Origin: Saccoglossus kowalevskii
Taxonomy: Eukaryota; Hemichordata; Enteropneusta; Harrimaniidae
Length of the DNA stretch: 27,182 bases
Assembly: GCF_000003605.2 (NCBI RefSeq)
Contig: NW_003121911.1
Span: 1,254,361 to 1,281,542 of the forward strand
Reading direction: 5' to 3'
The notes under the pieces are model-generated. The model was not told the DNA's origin and did not search any database. It saw nothing but the letters and a program-made list of their open reading frames with translations. The position numbers and the translations under genes were made by a program. Below, piece by piece: positions 4,180 through 24,625 of this stretch; position 1 is the stretch's first letter; the number at the start of each line of letters is the position of its first letter.

Positions 4180-4999
4180 ATGTCAAAAGGCAATATTTAC
4201 AAATCCGAGAACACACAGGGGACACACAAACAAAACAAACAACGCACTGTCAAATCGGTGAGAGATACATGGACCTCAAGGCACAAACCAAGAGGTGCTG
4301 TCAGGTGTTTCGAAAAGAGTGGGCACATCCTGCTCCACATGTGGCACCCGCCATATATCTGTCTGAGTCACAATGGTGAATTTTTAGGTCATCCTCGTGC
4401 AAGACAATTGACATCCAGCGCTTCTATTATCATCTGTTTCATAGAAACATGATACTTGTCCACCAGGTGATGATACTTGCCATAGAACTTTTTAAATGAC
4501 AAACCCTTGACTTAATAGTTTAAAACAGAGAAGACGATGTCGTTGTAAAACATCAGAATACATACTACATGCTCTGCCATAACGGATAAGCTGAGATATG
4601 TAAACGCCATAAGCGGGGGGAAACAGGTACATGTATATTGAAAAATTTATGATAGTGAAATTGAAATCATCTCTTTTGTCATAAAGTCTGGTAGAAAGAT
4701 GACTATTGTTGTCAAATTTGAGGTACATGTCAAGGTAATGAGGCCGAGGAAGTTGATTCTGTAGTTTCTTTAATGTCCAGTTCTGTGGGATATATTAATA
4801 GGAGCGAATCACAAAAGTTAGGATTGTTGATGGAAAGGACATCATCAATATATCTAAATGTAAAATTAAAAGATTTAGCTTCTTTAAATTTTTTGTTTCT
4901 AACAAGTTTCTGAAGAAACTCGGTCTCATACGAGAATAAAAAAAAGTCGGCCAGCAAGTCATCATTCTCAACTCTGGCTGGTATTTTAAGAGAAACCAT
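4180..4999 (-). mobile_element. Truncated retroelement remnant (RT fragment plus 3' tail)
   Basis: The element runs on the minus strand. Beyond the RT stop at 4389, the stretch to about 4180 reads, on the minus strand, as a non-coding tail including GGTGCCACATGTGGAGCAGG. From memory this resembles the 3' flank of related elements in bivalves, but it was not checked. No terminal repeats or target-site duplications were identified, so both ends are approximate. The upstream edge is blurred: stops interrupt the RT frame above 5000, although TTFTEEEIQANHKSF at about 5001-5050 could be further decayed coding sequence. Confidence 0.55.
4389..4999 (-). pseudogene. Broken reverse-transcriptase fragment, Penelope-like type
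   Basis: Reading the minus strand from 4999 gives a degenerate IP....LLAD block, then FLFSYETEFLQKLV, then FRYIDDVLSINNP. YIDD in the last block is the catalytic YxDD box of reverse transcriptases. The frame breaks near 4730 by one extra T: ASLP should read ASYLD. It resumes as YLKFDNN, LYDKRDDFNFTIINF and YGVYISQLIRYGRACS, and stops at 4492. A second shift recovers FKKFYGKYHHLVDKYHVSM down to a stop at 4389. The order matches the C-terminal half of RT proteins common in marine invertebrate genomes, which I place nearest Penelope-like elements. The N-terminal fingers, and the endonuclease if any, are missing. At least two frameshifts make it inactive. Confidence 0.75.
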
Positions 5000-6339
5000 G
5001 AAAGACTTGTGATTCGCCTGGATTTCTTCCTCAGTAAAAGTGGTTTGTCTATAAGTAAATGAGGATTATTCCGTCGAAACTCACTTGCTATGGATTTCTT
5101 GAATATCTGCATTTGTTATTATAGTACAATAAGTGTGAAATTGTTTTTGAAATTTCCAGTAGGTCCTCCCTTTTTCACCAGACTTTATTTATTTCTAGTT
5201 TGCTATAGACTGGGCATTGTTAGCCCTGTGTTAGTAATTGTTTTGCTTGTCTCAATCAATTGAGTTTGGTTGTGTAGTATTGGTTAACTACAGTTGAGGG
5301 ACTCTGGGTTAACTGAGGTGTTATTACACTAGACCAATTTGGTTATTGTTGTGTATTTACTAAAGTTACTTCCTTCACCAGCTTATTCCGTTACTAGTAT
5401 GTGGTGTAGCTATAAGGTGAGTATTTCTCATCTTGTTTACCAGTTCTCCATAAATACATGTATTGGAGGTGTTTTTTATTACCTGTGAATATGAACCGCA
5501 AGAGACGTAGATGAACATCCCCCAACATCTGATTTATGTGCTTTCGTCTCGCCAAATGTCACTACCATAAGCTAGGATTTGTCATACAATAATACTCACT
5601 AGCATACGCTGGGGGCGCTGTTCTCCACTGGTTGTGAAGAAGACCGTGGCGTATTCAGTTTACTAATCATAATCAATCCATCCTTGTGAAAGTGCTGCAG
5701 TTTCATTTGCCTTCGCATCACTTTATTTTGTGTTCCAGGAATTAAACTGTGTATTAAAAACACTTCATACCACCTGTGTCTTTGATTAGACACTACGAGA
5801 GAGTATGTCGTTGTCCCTTTCCGTTATCATGTAATGTATATTTCAATATGCACATAATGTACCTTTATCGTCCTGTACATTTAATGGCAAGTGTGAGAGA
5901 AGTCTGCATCAAACTCTCAATTTCAGATTGCCGCATGAGCGCAACACAATTCCGCACATAATTCTCTAATTTCAGCTATGTTCTCGTTAACTGAGAAAAA
6001 ATATGGTCAGATTGAATTGGATTGAAAATAAATTATTTCCGTTTCCATACCACGGGATCACAACAGTTCCGTTGGCATGCCAACGCAACTAGTCATTTGG
6101 ATTAGTCGTCTGGATTTCAATTGAACAGAGCTGATGTTGAGAATGTTGCACATCTCCCGCTGCAAACCTGGCCTGTTACCGCCTCCATGTCATTTCAATT
6201 ATTCAAAACATGAGTCAGTCGTGTATTTTAGCACTATACATTATTATGAGACTAAATACAGGATTTTTTTAATTTTAAAACACGCAAGGTTTAATTTTAA
6301 TCAAATTCATGTTACACGTTCCTAAATAGTAACCACGAT
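5000..6339. other. Intergenic between the RT remnant and the PDE promoter
   Basis: It may contain decayed upstream RT sequence up to about 5112. The 64-residue minus-strand frame at 5599-5793 looks mildly protein-like but has no recognisable family. The 6070 palindrome is listed separately. Confidence 0.5.
6070..6085. promoter_or_regulatory. Perfect 16-bp palindrome upstream of the PDE promoter
   Basis: CGTTGGCATGCCAACG is its own reverse complement. It sits about 530 bp before the start codon. TTGGC..GCCAA resembles an NFI dimer site with too short a spacer, and TGGCATGCCA is an imperfect p53-family half site. No family is assigned. Confidence 0.35.
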
Positions 6340-6617: not shown

Positions 6618-7238
6618 ATGGGAACGAAACAGATAACCAGGGAAGATGTCGCGAAGTTTTTGGAGAACGATTACCAGTTCGCCGAGGAATATTTCTCGAC
6701 GTCAGCTACAGCAAGCATGGTAGAAAAATGGGTAGCTAAACACCCGGGTCACAAAGACGCGCAGTCGTTTGCAGACTCCGACTCAATCGGAGAGACGGAG
6801 AAAGGGGCCGCAATTTTGAAACACTTTCGGAAATCGATGTCAGGAGCCGGGGGCTCGTTGAAGAGTCTGATAAGCGGTAGTCCAAAGCCAAAGACGTTAC
6901 GCAGAAGTCGTACCGTGTTGAAAGAAATGAATGAAAAGGAACTGTTCATGGAACTGATTCGTGACATTTCTAATGAATTAGATATTAACTCATTAAGCCA
7001 CAAAATTCTGCTTAACGTCAGCGTTTTGACAAACGGTGATCGGTGCAGTTTGTTTTTGGTAAGAGGCTCCAAGGAAAATCGCCAGCTTGTTTCGAAGCTG
7101 TTTGATGTCAATGAGAATTCAACACTGGAAGATTCTATACACTCAGAAGCTAAAGAAATACGCTTGCCGTTTGGTAAAGGAATCGTCGGACATGTTGCGC
7201 TCACTAAGGAAACGGTTAACATCAAAAATGCTTACGAG
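6618..7238 (+). CDS. PDE11: First coding exon of a PDE11-like dual cAMP/cGMP phosphodiesterase (5' partial gene)
   Basis: The exon encodes residues 1-207 of a class I cyclic-nucleotide phosphodiesterase, which hydrolyses cAMP and/or cGMP in the cytosol. ATG 6618 is the first ATG after an in-frame TGA at 6537 and has G at -3 and +4, a good Kozak context. Residues 11-43 match the N-terminal PDE5/11 segment (VAKFLEN, MVEKWVAKH). Residues 50-105 are a Ser/Lys/Arg-rich linker with RKS and RRS sites that could be phosphorylated. GAF-A starts near residue 115 (DISNELD, SLSHKIL), with DRCSLFLV at 141-148, LVSKLFDV at 157-164 and KGIVGHV at 187-193. The exon ends at NIKNAYE before GTAAGT, in phase 0, which agrees with where I recall the PDE5/PDE11 exon boundary. 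DRCSLFLV, DISN..D and VEKW favour PDE11 over PDE5. The rest of GAF-A, GAF-B and the HD-type catalytic domain lie outside the window or beyond the visible intron. No frameshift is present. Confidence 0.92.
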
Positions 7239-7261: not shown

Positions 7262-7508
7262 CAATGCGTTGAAGAATGAATGACTAAATCAACGACCAGA
7301 CACAAGACCGCCGTTGGTCGCACACCTGCTGCCTTATGTGCTATTGTATAAGTGACTACAGCCTTTCATTGTTCATGCCCCGTTATATTTGAACACCGCG
7401 GGTCTGTTGTTTACAGGATTTCCCTAACAGTCTGTCTGCTATCATGGCCGAGGACCCTCCAATTTAGTTTGAGGGTTTCCCTCTAAAGGATGGCTCGCTA
7501 TCCGTAAT

Positions 7509-7531
7509 CAGCGCGCGCTGTACTCGCGCGA
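7509..7531. repeat. CpG-rich palindrome cluster
   Basis: CAGCGCGCGCTG (7509-7520) is a perfect 12-bp palindrome, followed by TCGCGCGA (7524-7531), another perfect palindrome. This CpG-dense patch is unusual in the AT-rich intron and lies 270 bp after exon 1. It may be the 3' edge of a promoter-associated CpG region. Confidence 0.45.
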
Positions 7532-9472
7532 AATATAAAATTCGACTGTTTTTTTCGGGTCCGGGTACCTATTTCTGTATTTATACTCTTTCAACTCAGT
7601 CGAATCCTTTTTCAGATGTCTTCACAGCATATCAGATTACTACAAGTTTCAAGTTTCGAACTACTGTCAACGGAAATTACTTCCGATTTTTGACAATTTA
7701 TAAAATTGAAACACGTTTGATTGAATGGTGAGTAAAACTCTTTGACGTCGAACCGGGCCTGCGTTGTTGTCGAACACAATATTAGCTCATTAACATTTCT
7801 GTGTGTTTTACCATAGTTCTGCCTTATTTTATAACATTGAGGATACAAGCAAATTCTAACATCTGTCGTTTTGTTCATTATTGTAAAAAAAGGGAGAATG
7901 TGAGCCGAACCGTTTTGGCCGTAGGCTACACCTAATAAGTAACTTGATTAACATTGACACCAAAAACGGTTTGGTTTTGGCACCTCATTACCGTGGCATT
8001 GCAGTTGTATCAGAATAATATCATTTAATTGATCGCTTATGCAAACATCAGATGGATTAAACTCAAAGTTTTTAATAAAAGCAATGTTTTGTGTTATGTC
8101 ACATGTGATATTTGCGACTATATGTATGTTTTAAACAAGCAGTCAGCGGCATAAAAGATGCGATTTTGAATGTGCTGTGCGGGAGAGTTTCGCCTTCACG
8201 CCGAGCAACTCACAAATACAATGTACTTTGCTTGTTGTGGAGAAAACAAAAGAGCCTGGCGCCTTGTCATTTGTTCTGTATATCAAAAGGGTTTCCCAGA
8301 GTTTGATGGTGAATAGGAGTTTTACGGCTTGAATACACAGGATAAATCAAAGTGTTCGCCATACATCCTTACAACTTCTATGCAGGGGAGATGTGTGCAG
8401 TGTGGTGTAATGCTATAATCCATGCAAAAAATCAACGGTGTTTTGTTAGAACATAGCGTTTCTCTTAGAGGGAGTTGAACTTGTATGTTCCTAGGTTGTC
8501 ATACTTTCATAGTGGTTTGTCGAGTTTTAGTGTATGAAATGAAGGACACCGTGAACCTAATCAAGTGGCTAGGCACTGATTTTGCATAAGAATATGCCAA
8601 TGTCAAATTACTGAGTCAATGCTATTAAAAGAAGTTCAGTTCTCTATGCTTTTCAAATACCTGGACATTAAAAGCATAGCAACCAACGGGTGTTTCTTCA
8701 TTGAAATTTTACTGCCATGAAAACACAGTAACGATACTGGCTTTTTTTGTGAGTACTTTATTGAAAGTCTAAAAAAAAAAGTTATTATACCAAGCAAGGC
8801 AATAAATAGGACAAACAAATCACGAACAGTTAATTTAGCAAAATAGAATTTATTGTTTTGTGACCTGGATTTATTGAGTTAATAAGAAAATAAGACCATT
8901 TGCTGTTCCCTGAGGTACCTGACAGTCGATTGAACAAAAAGGGTTTACAAAAATTGATGGTGATTTTGTTATATTTTAAATGACCATTAAAAAGAAATCT
9001 AATTGTGTCTCTCATTCGTACTCCTAATTTATTTGCACATTTTAATTGAACTCTACTGATGTAGATGTCCAGCATCTTCTGCTATTGTTCAGAGAAAAGT
9101 ATTGCTCTCTATACTAGGCCTCGGTACTTGGAAGTACAATCGCCTGCCTTCTCTGGTTATAGCCGCTTCTCATAAAAATAGATATTTGTGAACGAGCAAA
9201 CACAGCATTGTTCAGACTGTTGGTTACCTGCCAACTTAGCCTGTTACAGCTTGGCTCGTATTGACAAGCTGCGTGCAAATGTTTTTTTCACACGTATTCC
9301 TCCATGTACAACTGGGACAGTTTTAGTGGAAAATTACATAGCTAACAAAACAAAATGTTTAAAGGGTGATGTTGAATATTCCATAATTTGAGGCTGTGCT
9401 ATTTATCCAAAGAAAAATGTAGTAAGATATTAGTCAGAAGTTTGATTTTTGAACATCTTGGGCATCATCAAG

Positions 9473-9713
9473 TCACTGATCAATCTGATTAAAATCTGAT
9501 GTAGGTATGAGGCTTCAATTTTTTTTTTTTTTTTTTTTATGACCCTTTATATAATATTTATTTGTACTTTAGTTTGAATATGTTGATTTTTTGTTTTTTC
9601 TTGCTGTTAATCAGTTCTTAGAAAATCGTGTCCCAAATAAATATTATATAGAGTTATAAAAAAAAAATTGGAGCCTCATACCTGCATTGGATTTTAATCA
9701 GATTGGTCACTGA
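9473..9713. repeat. Foldback (long inverted repeat), possible MITE
   Basis: The left arm (9473-9564) and right arm (9634-9713) are inverted copies. The first 46 or so bases of the left arm match the reverse complement of the right arm with about six differences, sharing CAATCTGATTAAAATC and GGTATGAGGC. Both then have a poly-T run (20 T's on the left, about 10 as read on the right), and both end in TATATAATATTTATTTG. The loop is about 69 bp. No coding capacity is present. The structure fits a non-autonomous foldback or MITE-type insertion. Confidence 0.75.
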
Positions 9714-12700
9714 TTTACTGTTACAATGCATTTCCCATTAATGTTGACCTTAATGCACAGCAGACTTTTTTTCTTCCCCTCCATGTTTGGCCTTTAGGTG
9801 TCTCCATTTTAATTTATAGGACAGTCACCAGTCTATCAATACACCAAAAAACAACCACATAATTATCTTACAATGTGTTGACAAAACATGTCCTGACTAA
9901 TTGAATTGGATGCAATTTGCATATCACATGATTGGTCATGTGATAATTTGGAAGTGATATGTTGGAAATGAGGAGGAAACAACCTTCTGATTTTACAGCA
10001 AATTTGTATGTCAATATTAATCCTGCCTGTCCTGTATATTTCCCCCAACTTCAGAGTATTTTCCCTGACACATCCCTGACAACAGACAACCATATACTGT
10101 ACCACTGCCCTGAAAAAAACACAAAAACAGTATATTAAAGAGAGATTCAACCACATATTGTTTACAAAGTGATTCTTTTACTGATGTAGCCACTGTGTCT
10201 AAGTAAACATCAAACGTACCTGTACTTTAAAATTGTTGGTTGCTATTTTAGGATTTTAGCGAGCTCTCAAAATGGAATTCAAAACAGTGATGTACCGATA
10301 TAATAGGATTTTAACTTGATGAAATGTTTGTAATCCAGCTGGCTTAAAAGTATGGGTCTAATACGGACATATACCGGTAGCTATAAACTTGATTCACTTA
10401 ATGTATTTCAACAAAATAGATGCATTAAATAATTTGTATACACTTTTGGCTCAGTATGAACTAGTTTGTTTGTGAGCACACAATTATGTAAGTCGTCTTA
10501 TGCACAGTTTTGTGATCACATTGTCATGGGCAAGCGGGAGGGGTGTTGTCATCTGACGTCTCACTTATACATGTATACCAGTAGTTGAACATTTTTCATA
10601 TTACCCATTTGATATTAATTCCAAGAGAAATTGAGTCTAGCTATGCAACATTCCTTCATCCATTAATAACTATCATTCAATCAATCTCACCAAACCACCA
10701 TATGGCCAGTATATCACATTTACTTTAAACAAACACTTGAACCCTGACAAGCAGCCCACACAGATAAGCGATGAAAATATCTTTTGTAATGATTTGTACA
10801 AATATTTTATACTAAGTGATCAAGCGTTGATGGTTACCATGCTTTCCACTTCAATTTCTTTCTTTTATAATAATCATAAGCAAAGTGAAAATTAATCACA
10901 AGTATTAATCTAAATATATCACAGAATCTGTTTTTCACAAGCAAATCAAAAATGGTTTGAACTTTATATAACTTCATATGATAGGTAATTCAGCTTTAGT
11001 TTATTTCACTCTAAAGCCACTTACAGTTGTGTTTCTTGATTAGGTTTAAAATCAAATCAGTTTCATACAGAAATATTCCCTGGTGTAGACTCGTGGTATA
11101 GTAAATGGTTTAACCTCTGAATATTGTAATATGACCCCATCTTATTGTTGGCACAATATCAAATGCACATTTTAATGCAATTTTCGATAATTTTTGTTGT
11201 TAATTTTTAGAACGAATGAACATAATTTTCATTCAGGCATTGAATAAAGTTTGTAAAAAAATTATGCAGCTTTTATTTTTTATATATTGTGACATAAGTT
11301 GACTTTAGAAATCATTAAGGATTAAATTGAGGGAAAAAAATACGGATATTTCATCGTATCATGGATGATAGCAGACACTGCAGTTGTCTTACACAGTAAA
11401 ATGTCAAATTGTAGATAATGGTTACACATAGCAATAAATTATAATGTTTGGACTGAAGCTTCCTTTATAACCTTTGTGCTGTTTCCATTTTAGAACACTT
11501 TGCTATCATCCTACATTACTAGTAATGCACACTGACCAGATTCTTTAAGTGCTAAGATAAAAGAAAAAAGAAGGTTATTTCTGTGTTTTGTGCTTATTAG
11601 ATCTTAGTAATACAATTTACCATGTAACGTGTCATATCTGATTGCATCACTTGGGCCAATTCATCCCCTGAAGAAATAGATCGTAATTTTCTTGAAAGTA
11701 TAAGCCTGCTCGGGGAGTGTGTCTAGGGAATATAACAGCCATATCTGGAAATAGAATGTTAATATAAGCATTCTCATCTCATGTTTCTCTTTGATGCTGC
11801 TAATAGTGAAACTTGGGTCATATCATAACTGGTGTTCTGTCAGATGTACTGAAAGTATCAGGGTTGATATTATATTCCTGGGCTAATAGCTTTATAAATA
11901 TCAGGTTGAAAAAAGGTGTTTATTATTTTATTAAATCTTGTAGGGTCAGCGGATTTGTTTACTCTTCTCTGAGTAATAAAATTATCAAAAGAAAAATGAT
12001 AAAACGCGAAGAATACACATCTTGCATTGATGGGTTATTACGCACAATTACTTATGACTTATGAAAAGATAAGTTGGATATCCACTGTTAGTCATGAATA
12101 TTAATGAGGCAGACGAGCATTCCATACCCCGTCTTAGAATAATGTATGATATGATAAACGCACATGTTGCTTTTATGTACTAGTGTTGAGAACACCATAA
12201 ATAGGAAACAAAATGAAGTCGAACCGAGTAACGTAAATACAAATGTAGAAAGCTAGATCAACAGATTGATACTCTTAAGCCAGCCAGCATACCAACATTT
12301 CATTAAAGATCAACGCAGTTATTTTAACTATTCTGCTGCATACGTCAAGCCTATGATTTGATATATAATCGCCTCGGACTACAAGCCCTTTCCCCTCTTC
12401 CAGTTCAGCAATCATGTAGTAACCATACACACAATAAAATGTCTTACTGACGTATGAAGATCAATGTTCAATCATCATAATCCGACAACATAAAATCCAC
12501 TATCCCTAGACACACAGTATTTGTAATAAAGTTTCCGAATTGAACTAGATTTTAGTAGGCTGTTTCTGTGGTCTTTTTGTCAATTCATTTAAATTCAAAA
12601 AAATCTATAGCCTCGAATGTTTCTGCCTCATTTAATACTGCTGAGAAACTACTAGTAATTATGTGTTTCAAGTTTGTGCATTGTAAATAAAATGGGTTAT

Positions 12701-14619: not shown

Positions 14620-15994
14620 AAACAGTTAAAGGTTAAGTTCTACTCCATAAGCTGGTGAGTCAGCTTGTTTTCTTTTCTGATTGGGTTTGAGCATTTTTTT
14701 TTTTTTTAAATTGTACACAGTCCAAATTCCACATCTGGTGAGTAGGCCAGGTCAGCGTATGTAAATATTGATGAAGGAACTGGTGGGGAGAATATCATCT
14801 GTTTTTTTTTCAAAATGTTATTATTCTTCACAAGATATAAATGACTCCAATGAATTATATTATGAAGATGAGAAATTATGTTGTACTTTGCACTTGCCTG
14901 CCATTTTTTTTGCTAAAGGGCAATGAATGTCTGTGTATTGAATGCACTGGACCCCCCCCCCCTTACTATGAATACAAATTAAAAATCCAAGCATCAAATA
15001 AACCATATATTTTGTATTTCCAAAAAAAAACAATTATTGTATTTAATTGGATTTACAAGTATACCAAACTGAAACCAATTCATTTATATACACCTTTTAA
15101 TAGGTCATCTATGTTATCGAGTAAATACAGTATACAGAAAAAAATAGTGTCAGATAAATGTAACTGCTTACATTTGACCATCACAGTTGAAATACAGAAG
15201 ATGTATTATTAGTACAAATAGGCTGTTAATTATTGAAGTATTTGATTCATAAAATAATCACACATATAAATTTGAAACAGATTAATTATAATGTGCACAA
15301 AATACCAACTGAAAGTGTAAATGATACATTTCAGTTATTAGATTTCCCAGGAGAAAGATTAATATGCGAATATTAATAATTCATCATTTCTTGCAAGTAA
15401 TTGTACTTATTCAGATTGGAGCCCCGTAACGTGCATTTTGATGAAATTATTATTACAGAGTGTTTAGTAGTCTTCCTGACCTGAAAAGGTATCAAAGTGT
15501 GTAACTACTCTAGGCGCCACTGATCCTTAAACTGATAGCAACAAAAAGAAAATTAACGATGACAGGTCGTTGAAGGACATCACTCTATATCAAGAGCCTT
15601 CACTAACCATGGTACTTCTAAACTAAAGAATTATTGCCCAATCTTTAGTCGTATTTTTACCGCTCTCATTCTATGATCTTGGGTTAAACATTAAAAATAT
15701 CTGAAAAATAAGGAAGGAAAAATTGCTGTTTCTTATTGACTGACACCGGTACTTCCCTTTTCTCATGTCTGATGTATACAAATAGGTTTTCATATTGTGA
15801 ATATTTTTTATGCATACCTAATGCTTTTGAAAAAAAAAATGCTAGAACGCAGATTTATCTGTTATTCACTGGAAAACAAAAAATTATTATAAACAAATTA
15901 TGCTTTCCCCAAATGTATAAACATTTATAAATATTTAAATCAAATTAAAACAAAACCCTGTGATTAATGATAAGCATGTCTCTTGGTACTGCTC

Positions 15995-16060
15995 TATTGC
16001 ATAGAAAATGATGACTAGCGACACAGTGACGTCAAACACACAATCTTTCTGATTGGTCAA
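15995..16060 (+). promoter_or_regulatory. S-X-X2-Y-like composite element (RFX/CREB/NF-Y type)
   Basis: In order there are TATTGCATAGAA (15995-16006, S/W-like), ACTAGCGACA (16014-16023, X1 half-site-like, with G for A in AGCAAC), the perfect CRE TGACGTCA (16027-16034), 14 intervening bases, and CTGATTGG (16049-16056), an inverted CCAAT or Y box for NF-Y. From memory, the human HLA-DRA promoter has TTGCAAGAA, CCTAGCAACAGA, TGCGTCA, about 15 bases, then CTGATTGG, so order and spacing agree closely. Invertebrates have RFX, CREB and NF-Y but no MHC class II. Any functional likeness would be convergent or ancestral wiring. Confidence 0.4.
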
Positions 16061-16529
16061 ATAGGTTTCAACTATCGACTGCCATTTCTGAAAATTTATT
16101 AATAAACAAATAACCTAGACTGCAAATGACAGTATATAACATAAACACTGACAAGCGTGTGATCGTCTAGTGCCTCGGATTTATATCAAAGAAAAAAAAG
16201 GAGGGGCGGAAATTATTATTATTACTGCTGTTAACTTCATTTAATTAAAGTTGGTAAGAGGAGGGAGGGTATAATTAGGTCAGATAAAAATGGATGTTAT
16301 CATCTTATCCCATCTGTAGTAAACCCCTGAAACCACAATATAATTATCTGCCCATATCGGTTTTGTTTGGCAGCTGCTGTTATTGAGTAGTTGGATAAAG
16401 CTGCTTTGTGTTTGTGTGGCTGTTCACAAACAATTCAACCACCTTATATATGCAGCAGATAGCCTTGGTCATATTATTGTCAAAAGCCATAACTACTTGT
16501 ATTTCAAGCAACTTTCATCAAATTTAATA

Positions 16530-19406: not shown

Positions 19407-19414
19407 TGACGTCA
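19407..19414 (+). promoter_or_regulatory. Consensus CRE
   Basis: TGACGTCA is a perfect palindromic cAMP response element in intron 1. It is the second of two in the window, the other being at 16027-16034. Confidence 0.35.
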
Positions 19415-19980: not shown

Positions 19981-20125
19981 ACCTTTCACATTCAAACTTC
20001 ACACATACATCATACACCATGGGATACATATGATCATTGATTTGTTTCACAATATGAATCAAAATGACTGACTGGTGGCCATTTCATTTTAATGAATGCC
20101 ATGACTGTTTATGTTCAAACTCTAT
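19981..20125. repeat. Interspersed repeat copy (family A)
   Basis: TTCAAACTTCACACATACATCATAC is followed by CAAAATGACTGACTGGTGGCC and CATTTTAATGAATGC. The same blocks recur at about 24178-24290 and 24500-24560. The open frames around 19680-20071 fall in or beside this repeat and are not taken as genes. Confidence 0.55.
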
Positions 20126-23210: not shown

Positions 23211-24176
23211 TTAAAGTTAAAATCCATATATATTAGAGCATTCAACTAAATATCGCCAACAATACAAGTTTCATTCGGCAAATTTAGCATGTAGAGATCT
23301 CAGATGTATTTGAATACAAAATGCATGAAATTAAAAAAATTTCAGGTTGCCAAATTTCATTGAAAAACTTGCTCCTCAAACAAAACACGGCTACACATGT
23401 CAAAATGAGACCACCCTGTTCTTGTTGGTTGCTATAGATATCAAGTGATGCTTCTAGAACTCTACTCTCCTGAAGTACTGGTAAAATAACAACAAGCACA
23501 TAAACATGCTAACTGTTTTGTGATGGTGTAACCAATAGCACTAATTTGATTAACAAACAATTTTTCCATTAGCAACATGGGCTATGGCTACAAACCTTTC
23601 AGTTTTCAATGACATAGAAAAACAAATGACATGTACAATGTTTTCAACAACAACAAAAAAAAGAATCGTGAAAGCCATGGAGATTTTCTGTCATAGAAAA
23701 GAATTTTCAAATTAAAAACACCTTCATCTGTCATATGGTACAAACGTATTTCCTGCTTGATATATGTTTATGTCCTGAAGGTTTTGATGTTTCAAACATC
23801 TGCATGTCAATCACTGTGTTTTTATCAACTTTTATTCTCTCAAGTTATTTACTGTTTTATTTTTTTTTTTTTAGTCGAAACATTTTGGTTTAATTTTTGG
23901 ATGCTTGCTTGTCTTAATTGCCATGCATCTATATAGTCACAGCTATCTTTTCTTAGAAGTGGACAAGAACCGTCTTGACTAATTTGGTTCAAACATTTTT
24001 ACAACAGCTGGACTACAGATTATTCATTTATATTTATAGATTTTGTGTGTTCTGTCATTTTTCTTGGACATGCATGTAACATTATACTCTGTTCATTTTT
24101 GTGCTGAAAGTACGAAAATGGAGACTTGTAGATTCACCTGTGATGGGACCTAGTTGACATTGATTTACAGATTAGA

Positions 24177-24625
24177 CTCAAAATGGCTGACTGGTAGCCA
24201 CTTTATTTTAATGAATGCTGTTTTTGAGCTATATCTCTGACGTCTTAAAACTTAATACATACATGTACATCATACCTCTAAGCATATATAAGCATGTGTA
24301 TTTGTTTAATGATCCAACTTATGATGGCCAAACGATGGCCATTTTAGTGCAAACAAGTCATCTAAATTAAAAACCGAACTTATTATGCATGGGCAAATTT
24401 TGTGATTAAATTCATGATGTCAGACTGGTGTCAGTTTGAACGAATGCAGTCATTCCAGAGACATACAGTCGCTCTGACATGCCGTGAGCAATAATGTTCA
24501 AACTTCACAATACATCACATATCGTGTCACACCTATGCACATGCATTTCGCAATCCAATTAAAGAAGGCTAGATGGATTCCATTGTGACATCATTAAAGC
24601 TCTAATTCAAAATGGTTGACAGTTT
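24177..24625. repeat. Degenerate tandem array of repeat family A
   Basis: CAAAATGGCTGACTGGTAGCC (24179) with ATTTTAATGAATGC is followed by further partial copies. ACTTAATACATACATG with CATCATACCTC starts near 24251, GATGGCCATTTTAG is near 24335, ACTGGTGTCAGTTTGAACGAATGC is near 24424, TTCAAACTTCACAATACATC is near 24500, and CAAAATGGTTGACAGTTTTG is near 24608. Units are about 140-190 bp and heavily diverged. Confidence 0.5.

Follow-up and report, generated by a model that had tools for sequence, protein, structure and literature searches.

The four-box locus at 15997–16056 works, if at all, most likely as an ordinary CRE–CCAAT module, perhaps as a cAMP-responsive intronic promoter or enhancer. 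To the reading that it is a small cis-regulatory module with putative CREB/ATF and NF-Y sites 14 bp apart, located in a long intron of a PDE11-like gene and serving cyclic-nucleotide feedback, we assign a probability of roughly 0.48. This reading is favoured because the CRE and the CCAAT box are both perfect and their pair is the part of the locus least expected by chance. The two perfect boxes, the gap between them and their position can be read directly from the window, that is, the whole stretch of 27,182 bases (34% G+C) that was analysed. We infer that CREB and NF-Y would bind here, that the gene extends further downstream, and that the locus would have promoter or enhancer activity and take part in feedback. 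The original prediction, in which the locus had been read as an MHC-II-type S-X-X2-Y enhanceosome layout within a phosphodiesterase intron, was partly supported.

All four boxes are present as described (Table 1). The S-like, X1-like, CRE and Y strings were found at the predicted places, and the gap of 14 bases between the CRE and the Y box as well as the distance of 18 bases from TTGCA to CTAGC proved correct. The boxes span 60 bp from S to Y and follow the order and orientation S, X, X2, Y of SXY modules. The perfect CRE at X2 presents a sequence-predicted CREB/ATF site and CTGATTGGTC at Y a sequence-predicted NF-Y site, whereby CTGATTGG corresponds perfectly to the NF-Y core; the two consensus sites lie within about two helical turns of each other. 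As the original prediction had also noted, the X1 half site is imperfect, since the substitution falls inside the GCAAC core, which here reads GCGAC with a G where an A is expected. The claimed likeness to HLA-DRA holds for order, orientation and span, but not for the distance from X1 start to CRE start, which had been omitted from the comparison and amounts to 12 bases here versus 10 in HLA-DRA when the CGTCA half anchors the alignment.

Table 1. Features of the four-box locus, its possible promoter signals and the upstream coding exon (positions in the window)
Feature	Position	Strand	Basis
First coding exon of PDE11-like phosphodiesterase (encodes the N-terminus and the beginning of GAF-A)	6618..7238	+	first Met to GAG|GTAAGT
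S-like box TTGCATAGAA	15997..16006	+	present in sequence; 6/9 to TTGCAAGAA
X1-like box CTAGCGACA, imperfect RFX half site	16015..16023	+	8/9 to CTAGCAACA
Perfect CRE TGACGTCA (X2-like)	16027..16034	+	present in sequence
CTGATTGG, reverse-read CCAAT box (Y-like)	16049..16056	+	present in sequence
TATATAA, possible TATA box 76 bp past the CCAAT box (speculative)	16133..16139	+	sequence
TGGTAAGA, donor-like, speculative end of a non-coding first exon	16252..16259	+	sole + strand TGGTAAGA of the intron

Taken singly, the boxes differ in how far they exceed chance. Given the two perfect CREs and four CTGATTGG of the window, a pair in the same orientation with a gap of 13–17 has a probability of 0.0014. 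The window is itself rich in both elements, as 400 simulated windows contained on average 0.36 perfect CREs and 0.76 CTGATTGG (both strands). If the pair is allowed anywhere within 60 bp and on either side, the probability rises to 0.035, which leaves room for chance. For X1, a match of 8/9 within five offsets has a probability of 0.0018; in total, 11 X1-like sites of at least 8/9 occur in the window, the locus' own site included (9 on the + and 2 on the − strand), and one of them, at position 96 on the − strand, matches at 9/9. Thus, both the CRE/CCAAT pair at this gap and the X1 box at 8/9 exceed chance. The evidence for the S box is weak: its 6/9 match to TTGCAAGAA has a probability of 0.09 (9% of intron positions, five offsets), and its exact TTGCA core one of about 0.009 (0.0085).

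In order to place the locus, we analyzed the coding content of the window, which holds one recognisable gene piece, the PDE11-like exon. The product of the + frame at 6618 matched the GAF-A structures of PDE5/PDE6 with a best E of 9.4e-23 (phmmer), and a human PDE11A4 query sequence aligned with the exon up to base 7238 at E 8.5e-26 (tblastn); the initial 42 residues of the exon also aligned with PDE11A4 from Met1 (E 0.012, tblastn). In Pfam, the short translation of the exon reached GAF at E 0.00076, its 20.4 bits falling short of the cut-off of 22.4. At the 3' end of the exon the donor-like GAGGTAAGT is read, and the four-box locus follows about 8.8 kb downstream of the exon. Of the claim that the locus sits in a PDE intron, the part that held true is that a first coding exon of an animal PDE11-like gene lies upstream, while the placement in intron 1 is an assignment by inference, because a second exon was not found in the window and would lie past 27,182 or have been missed. 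The six frames of the window, stop-masked and split into halves, yielded no Pfam match at E 0.01, whereby these scans are insensitive and missed the PDE exon itself; phmmer with the three + frames of 7.2–22.2 kb against PDB chains gave nothing at E 0.1. A search of the whole window for the next GAF exon with motif regexes yielded two weak DxxTG matches (6100 and 25981), neither of them exon-like, tblastn with PDE11A found nothing better than E 3.6 outside the exon, and a codon-bias scan of the whole window showed no strong candidate besides it. A search of the viral_contigs collection yielded no relative of the exon, as none of 9 pattern stretches was confirmed, and Rfam and ARAGORN found nothing on the window. 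The window also contains several repeat-like stretches. An inverted repeat with arms of 59 nt (9470–9528 and 9658–9716; 88% complementary, 129 nt apart) is possibly a small transposable element, and a 44-nt sequence in two copies of 89% identity (20056–20099 and 24175–24218) is likely an interspersed repeat. On the − strand, 4492–5065 holds broken frames reading ...FRYIDDVLSINNPNF..., which we take to resemble debris of a retroelement reverse transcriptase; the sole Pfam match for one piece of this region was Nbas_N (E 0.096), which stayed below the cut-off, and the other piece had none.

CREB and NF-Y are general animal regulators. If the locus is a CREB/NF-Y module, cAMP, or cGMP via its kinases, would activate CREB on the CRE, and NF-Y on the CCAAT box would bend and open the DNA and stabilise CREB. 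Together they could drive an intronic alternative promoter, for which TATATAA would put the start near 16160, or they could act as an enhancer of the upstream promoter. Since a phosphodiesterase destroys cyclic nucleotides, the enzyme would thereby close a negative feedback loop. The X1-like and S-like letters might add a weak RFX contact or might be incidental. The CpG content, TATATAA and TGGTAAGA can be regarded as weak post hoc hints at a promoter within the intron whose first exon is non-coding. For 16010–16209, a stretch picked after the fact, CpG observed/expected is 1.0, versus 0.48 over the intron; as many CpGs are found in 5.1% of the 200-bp intron windows, and among the best 12 listed there are at least 9 other separate intron places with at least 7 CpGs per 200 bp. 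TATATAA lies 60–120 bp downstream of 2.4% of intron positions (P 0.024), and the looser TATAWAW of 8.3% (P 0.083). An ATG is absent between 16139 and 16255. A downstream coding exon for such a promoter was found neither by phmmer in 7.2–22.2 kb nor by tblastn or codon bias in the whole window. With 15 CpGs per 200 bp, 7496–7695 directly after the PDE exon is the most CpG-rich place of the intron. The second perfect CRE, at 19407–19414 and 3.4 kb from the first one, overlaps an ATG and lies about 25 bases past a CTGATTGC; a candidate ATG-bearing exon at this place was inspected by eye and provisionally dropped, as its frame showed no PDE homology beyond a chance-level match (E 24, tblastn).

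The chief rival, which has to be taken as a serious possibility, is that short motifs met by chance in a long AT-rich intron and that the HLA-DRA template was chosen afterwards by a knowing reader, the locus having been selected from a reading for anything notable. How strong the composite appears against this depends on the test chosen. We scored TTGCAAGAA, CTAGCAACA, TGACGTCA and CTGATTGGYC in HLA-DRA order (maximum 36) and took as a null 56,000 windows of equal length simulated with an order-2 Markov model. With a spacing tolerance of ±2 bp, the locus scored 32/36, the top of the window with both strands counted, and exceeded the simulated maximum of 29, which speaks against chance. With ±1 bp, however, its score of 26, still the top of the window, was reached by 622 of the 56,000 simulated windows, and with exact spacing the locus fell outside the four best matches listed per strand; the loss is due to the longer X1–CRE distance. 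The same boxes with random gaps gave a window maximum of 30 among 1,454 templates kept, again against chance. Among 3,000 permuted templates, 43 reached at least 28, two reached 31 and one 32, and the latter three all did so at the four-box locus itself, the one at 32 with the core read on the opposite strand and S at its other flank. Thus, much of the score comes from the X1–CRE–Y core, with S contributing little. When the letters of S and X1 were scrambled at the same CRE, the observed 14/18 was reached in only 0.17% of 20,000 trials, which likewise argues against chance. A single occurrence of the X1+CRE+Y pattern in the window compares with none in 100 dinucleotide shuffles; TGACGTCA-N10-20-ATTGG is also present just once, and one shuffle out of 100 contains it. 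In favour of chance, a box-free local alignment to the HLA-DRA stretch, in whose template the S region and a 5-base linker are presumed letters, was best on the + strand at 15992–16064 with 57.5. Among 400 simulated windows 8 did at least as well, and among 300 templates with shuffled HLA-DRA letters 4 did. Moreover, the CTAGC/CRE/ATTGG triple with gaps that include the true one (CRE-to-ATTGG 17) was found in 2 stretches of viral_contigs, and the triple with a shorter CRE-to-ATTGG gap of 13–15 in 7 stretches of the prokaryote genome_contigs, a count that gives the rate for an equally specific pattern and not for the true geometry; in such sequences the code is not expected to function.

Less probable than either a CREB/NF-Y module or chance is a real S-X-X2-Y enhanceosome, in which X1 would be bound by an RFX-family protein, X2 by CREB and Y by NF-Y, assembled cooperatively at fixed spacing, controlling the phosphodiesterase and originating by convergence or by pre-MHC descent. 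We regard it as unlikely, although all four boxes share the order and orientation of such a module and the span lies within the 59–68 bp of SXY modules given in PMC4243378. It is also favoured by S+X1 at 14/18 given the CRE (±2 bp), with P 1.6e-4 against simulated sequence and 5.0e-4 when real intron positions serve as the reference, and by the Y flanks, which in the local alignment resemble HLA-DRA past the box itself (TTTCTGATTGG.CAAA.AG). The altered GCAAC core, the 2-bp shift between X1 and X2 and the weak S box weigh against it, so that the predicted use of an RFX5-type enhanceosome code was not supported. According to PMC2278383, RFX on an X box is strictly required for CIITA recruitment, and the new S-Y enhancers were strongly weakened when the X box was mutated; in the locus, it is this critical element that is imperfect, and it stands at an altered distance from X2. 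Modules of the known kind are located close to transcription starts, in typical cases within 200–300 bp (PMC4243378 and PMC2278383), whereas the locus offers just a speculative start near 16160. For most invertebrates, only one RFX gene had been identified by 2008 (PMC2533330). Among the papers listed on SXY or RFX5 together with invertebrates or outside the MHC, none deals in its title or abstract opening with an SXY-type element of an invertebrate, and the statement of PMC7281430 on the subject is that the module is highly conserved across vertebrates. A true RFX-type enhanceosome is possible but not supported, and the wider claim that an invertebrate RFX–CREB–NF-Y composite at near-MHC spacing controls a cyclic-nucleotide phosphodiesterase, such that the MHC code would predate or have arisen apart from MHC genes and CIITA, is more doubtful still. 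The least likely reading of all places the boxes in a transposable element or in the promoter of another gene inserted in the intron. Retroelement-like debris near 4.5–5.1 kb on the − strand, the other repeats of the window, and a 16-nt, 81% complementary AT-rich inverted pair that encloses the boxes (15371–15386 and 16089–16104) would fit such an insertion. Within the window, however, 15.9–16.2 kb is overlaid by no repeat of at least 30 nt; apart from the inverted pair, which is weak, the repeats around the boxes amount to a 14-nt AT palindrome (15918–15937) and a 13-nt direct repeat (15443/16209), both of chance size, and an exact copy of the X1–CRE 20-mer is absent from viral_contigs.

For the comparison with HLA-DRA, we take CCTAGCAACAGATGCGTCATCTC to be its X1/X2 and CTAGCAACA its X1 half site for RFX, and we assume distances of 17 for S–X1 and 15 for X2–Y; these distances depend on the letters of the S region and of the 5-base linker, which are presumed ones as well. 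Relative to HLA-DRA, the locus shares order, orientation, the 60-bp span, a CRE-type X2 and a reverse CCAAT Y, but its X1 carries a substituted RFX core and its spacing differs by +1 for S–X1, +2 for X1–X2 and −1 for X2–Y, the first and last of these versus presumed letters. Unlike MHC-II modules, it is intronic and its start site is speculative, and the vertebrate proteins RFXAP and CIITA are not known from invertebrates, this animal included. CCTAGCAACAGATGCGTCATCTC occurs inside a probe labelled XBP1 in PMC4806502, and ATTTTTCTGATTGGCCAAAGAGTAATT, which contains the Y letters, is given as an HLA-DRA promoter primer in PMC4501648 and as a primer for HLA-DR also in PMC13338575. Layouts of the S-Y type outside MHC genes are found in human at RAB4B, TPP1, PSMD3, MYBPC2 and others, bound by CIITA/RFX, and six of these have a tightly constrained S-X-X2-Y arrangement; in contrast to the locus, they lie in CIITA-bound promoter regions with experimentally shown RFX dependence (PMC2278383). 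As NF-Y was present on two of three imperfect modules and some targets had no obvious S element in the same paper, imperfection is compatible with an SXY reading. The locus is at most a candidate member of the SXY family, with the layout present, the RFX site at 8/9 and the spacing displaced. The MHC resemblance is striking but weak in its defining part, the X1/RFX box, and the locus would bear on the origin of the MHC enhanceosome only if an RFX protein recognises X1 and the spacing proves conserved.

If the locus is a CREB/NF-Y module, it would constitute another cAMP-responsive element in a phosphodiesterase gene and follow a known feedback design. CRE and CCAAT promoter pairs are found in cyclin A and fibronectin, where CREB/ATF and NF-Y sites are likewise one to two helical turns apart, whereas here the pair sits in a PDE11-like intron and its function is predicted. 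An intronic phosphodiesterase promoter that invites comparison belongs to PDE4D, another PDE family than that of this locus, for which a promoter role is hypothetical. The literature considered on CRE/CCAAT pairs and PDE promoters comprises PMC7793273 and PMC10146088, as well as PMC3287996, which has no bearing on the argument. PMC10146088 describes four PDE11A variants that differ in their amino terminus and cites by title work on a cAMP-specific PDE gene whose intronic promoter gives hormone and cAMP inducibility (Vicini 1997); like this promoter, the module at 15997–16056 would exert cyclic-nucleotide feedback from within a phosphodiesterase gene.
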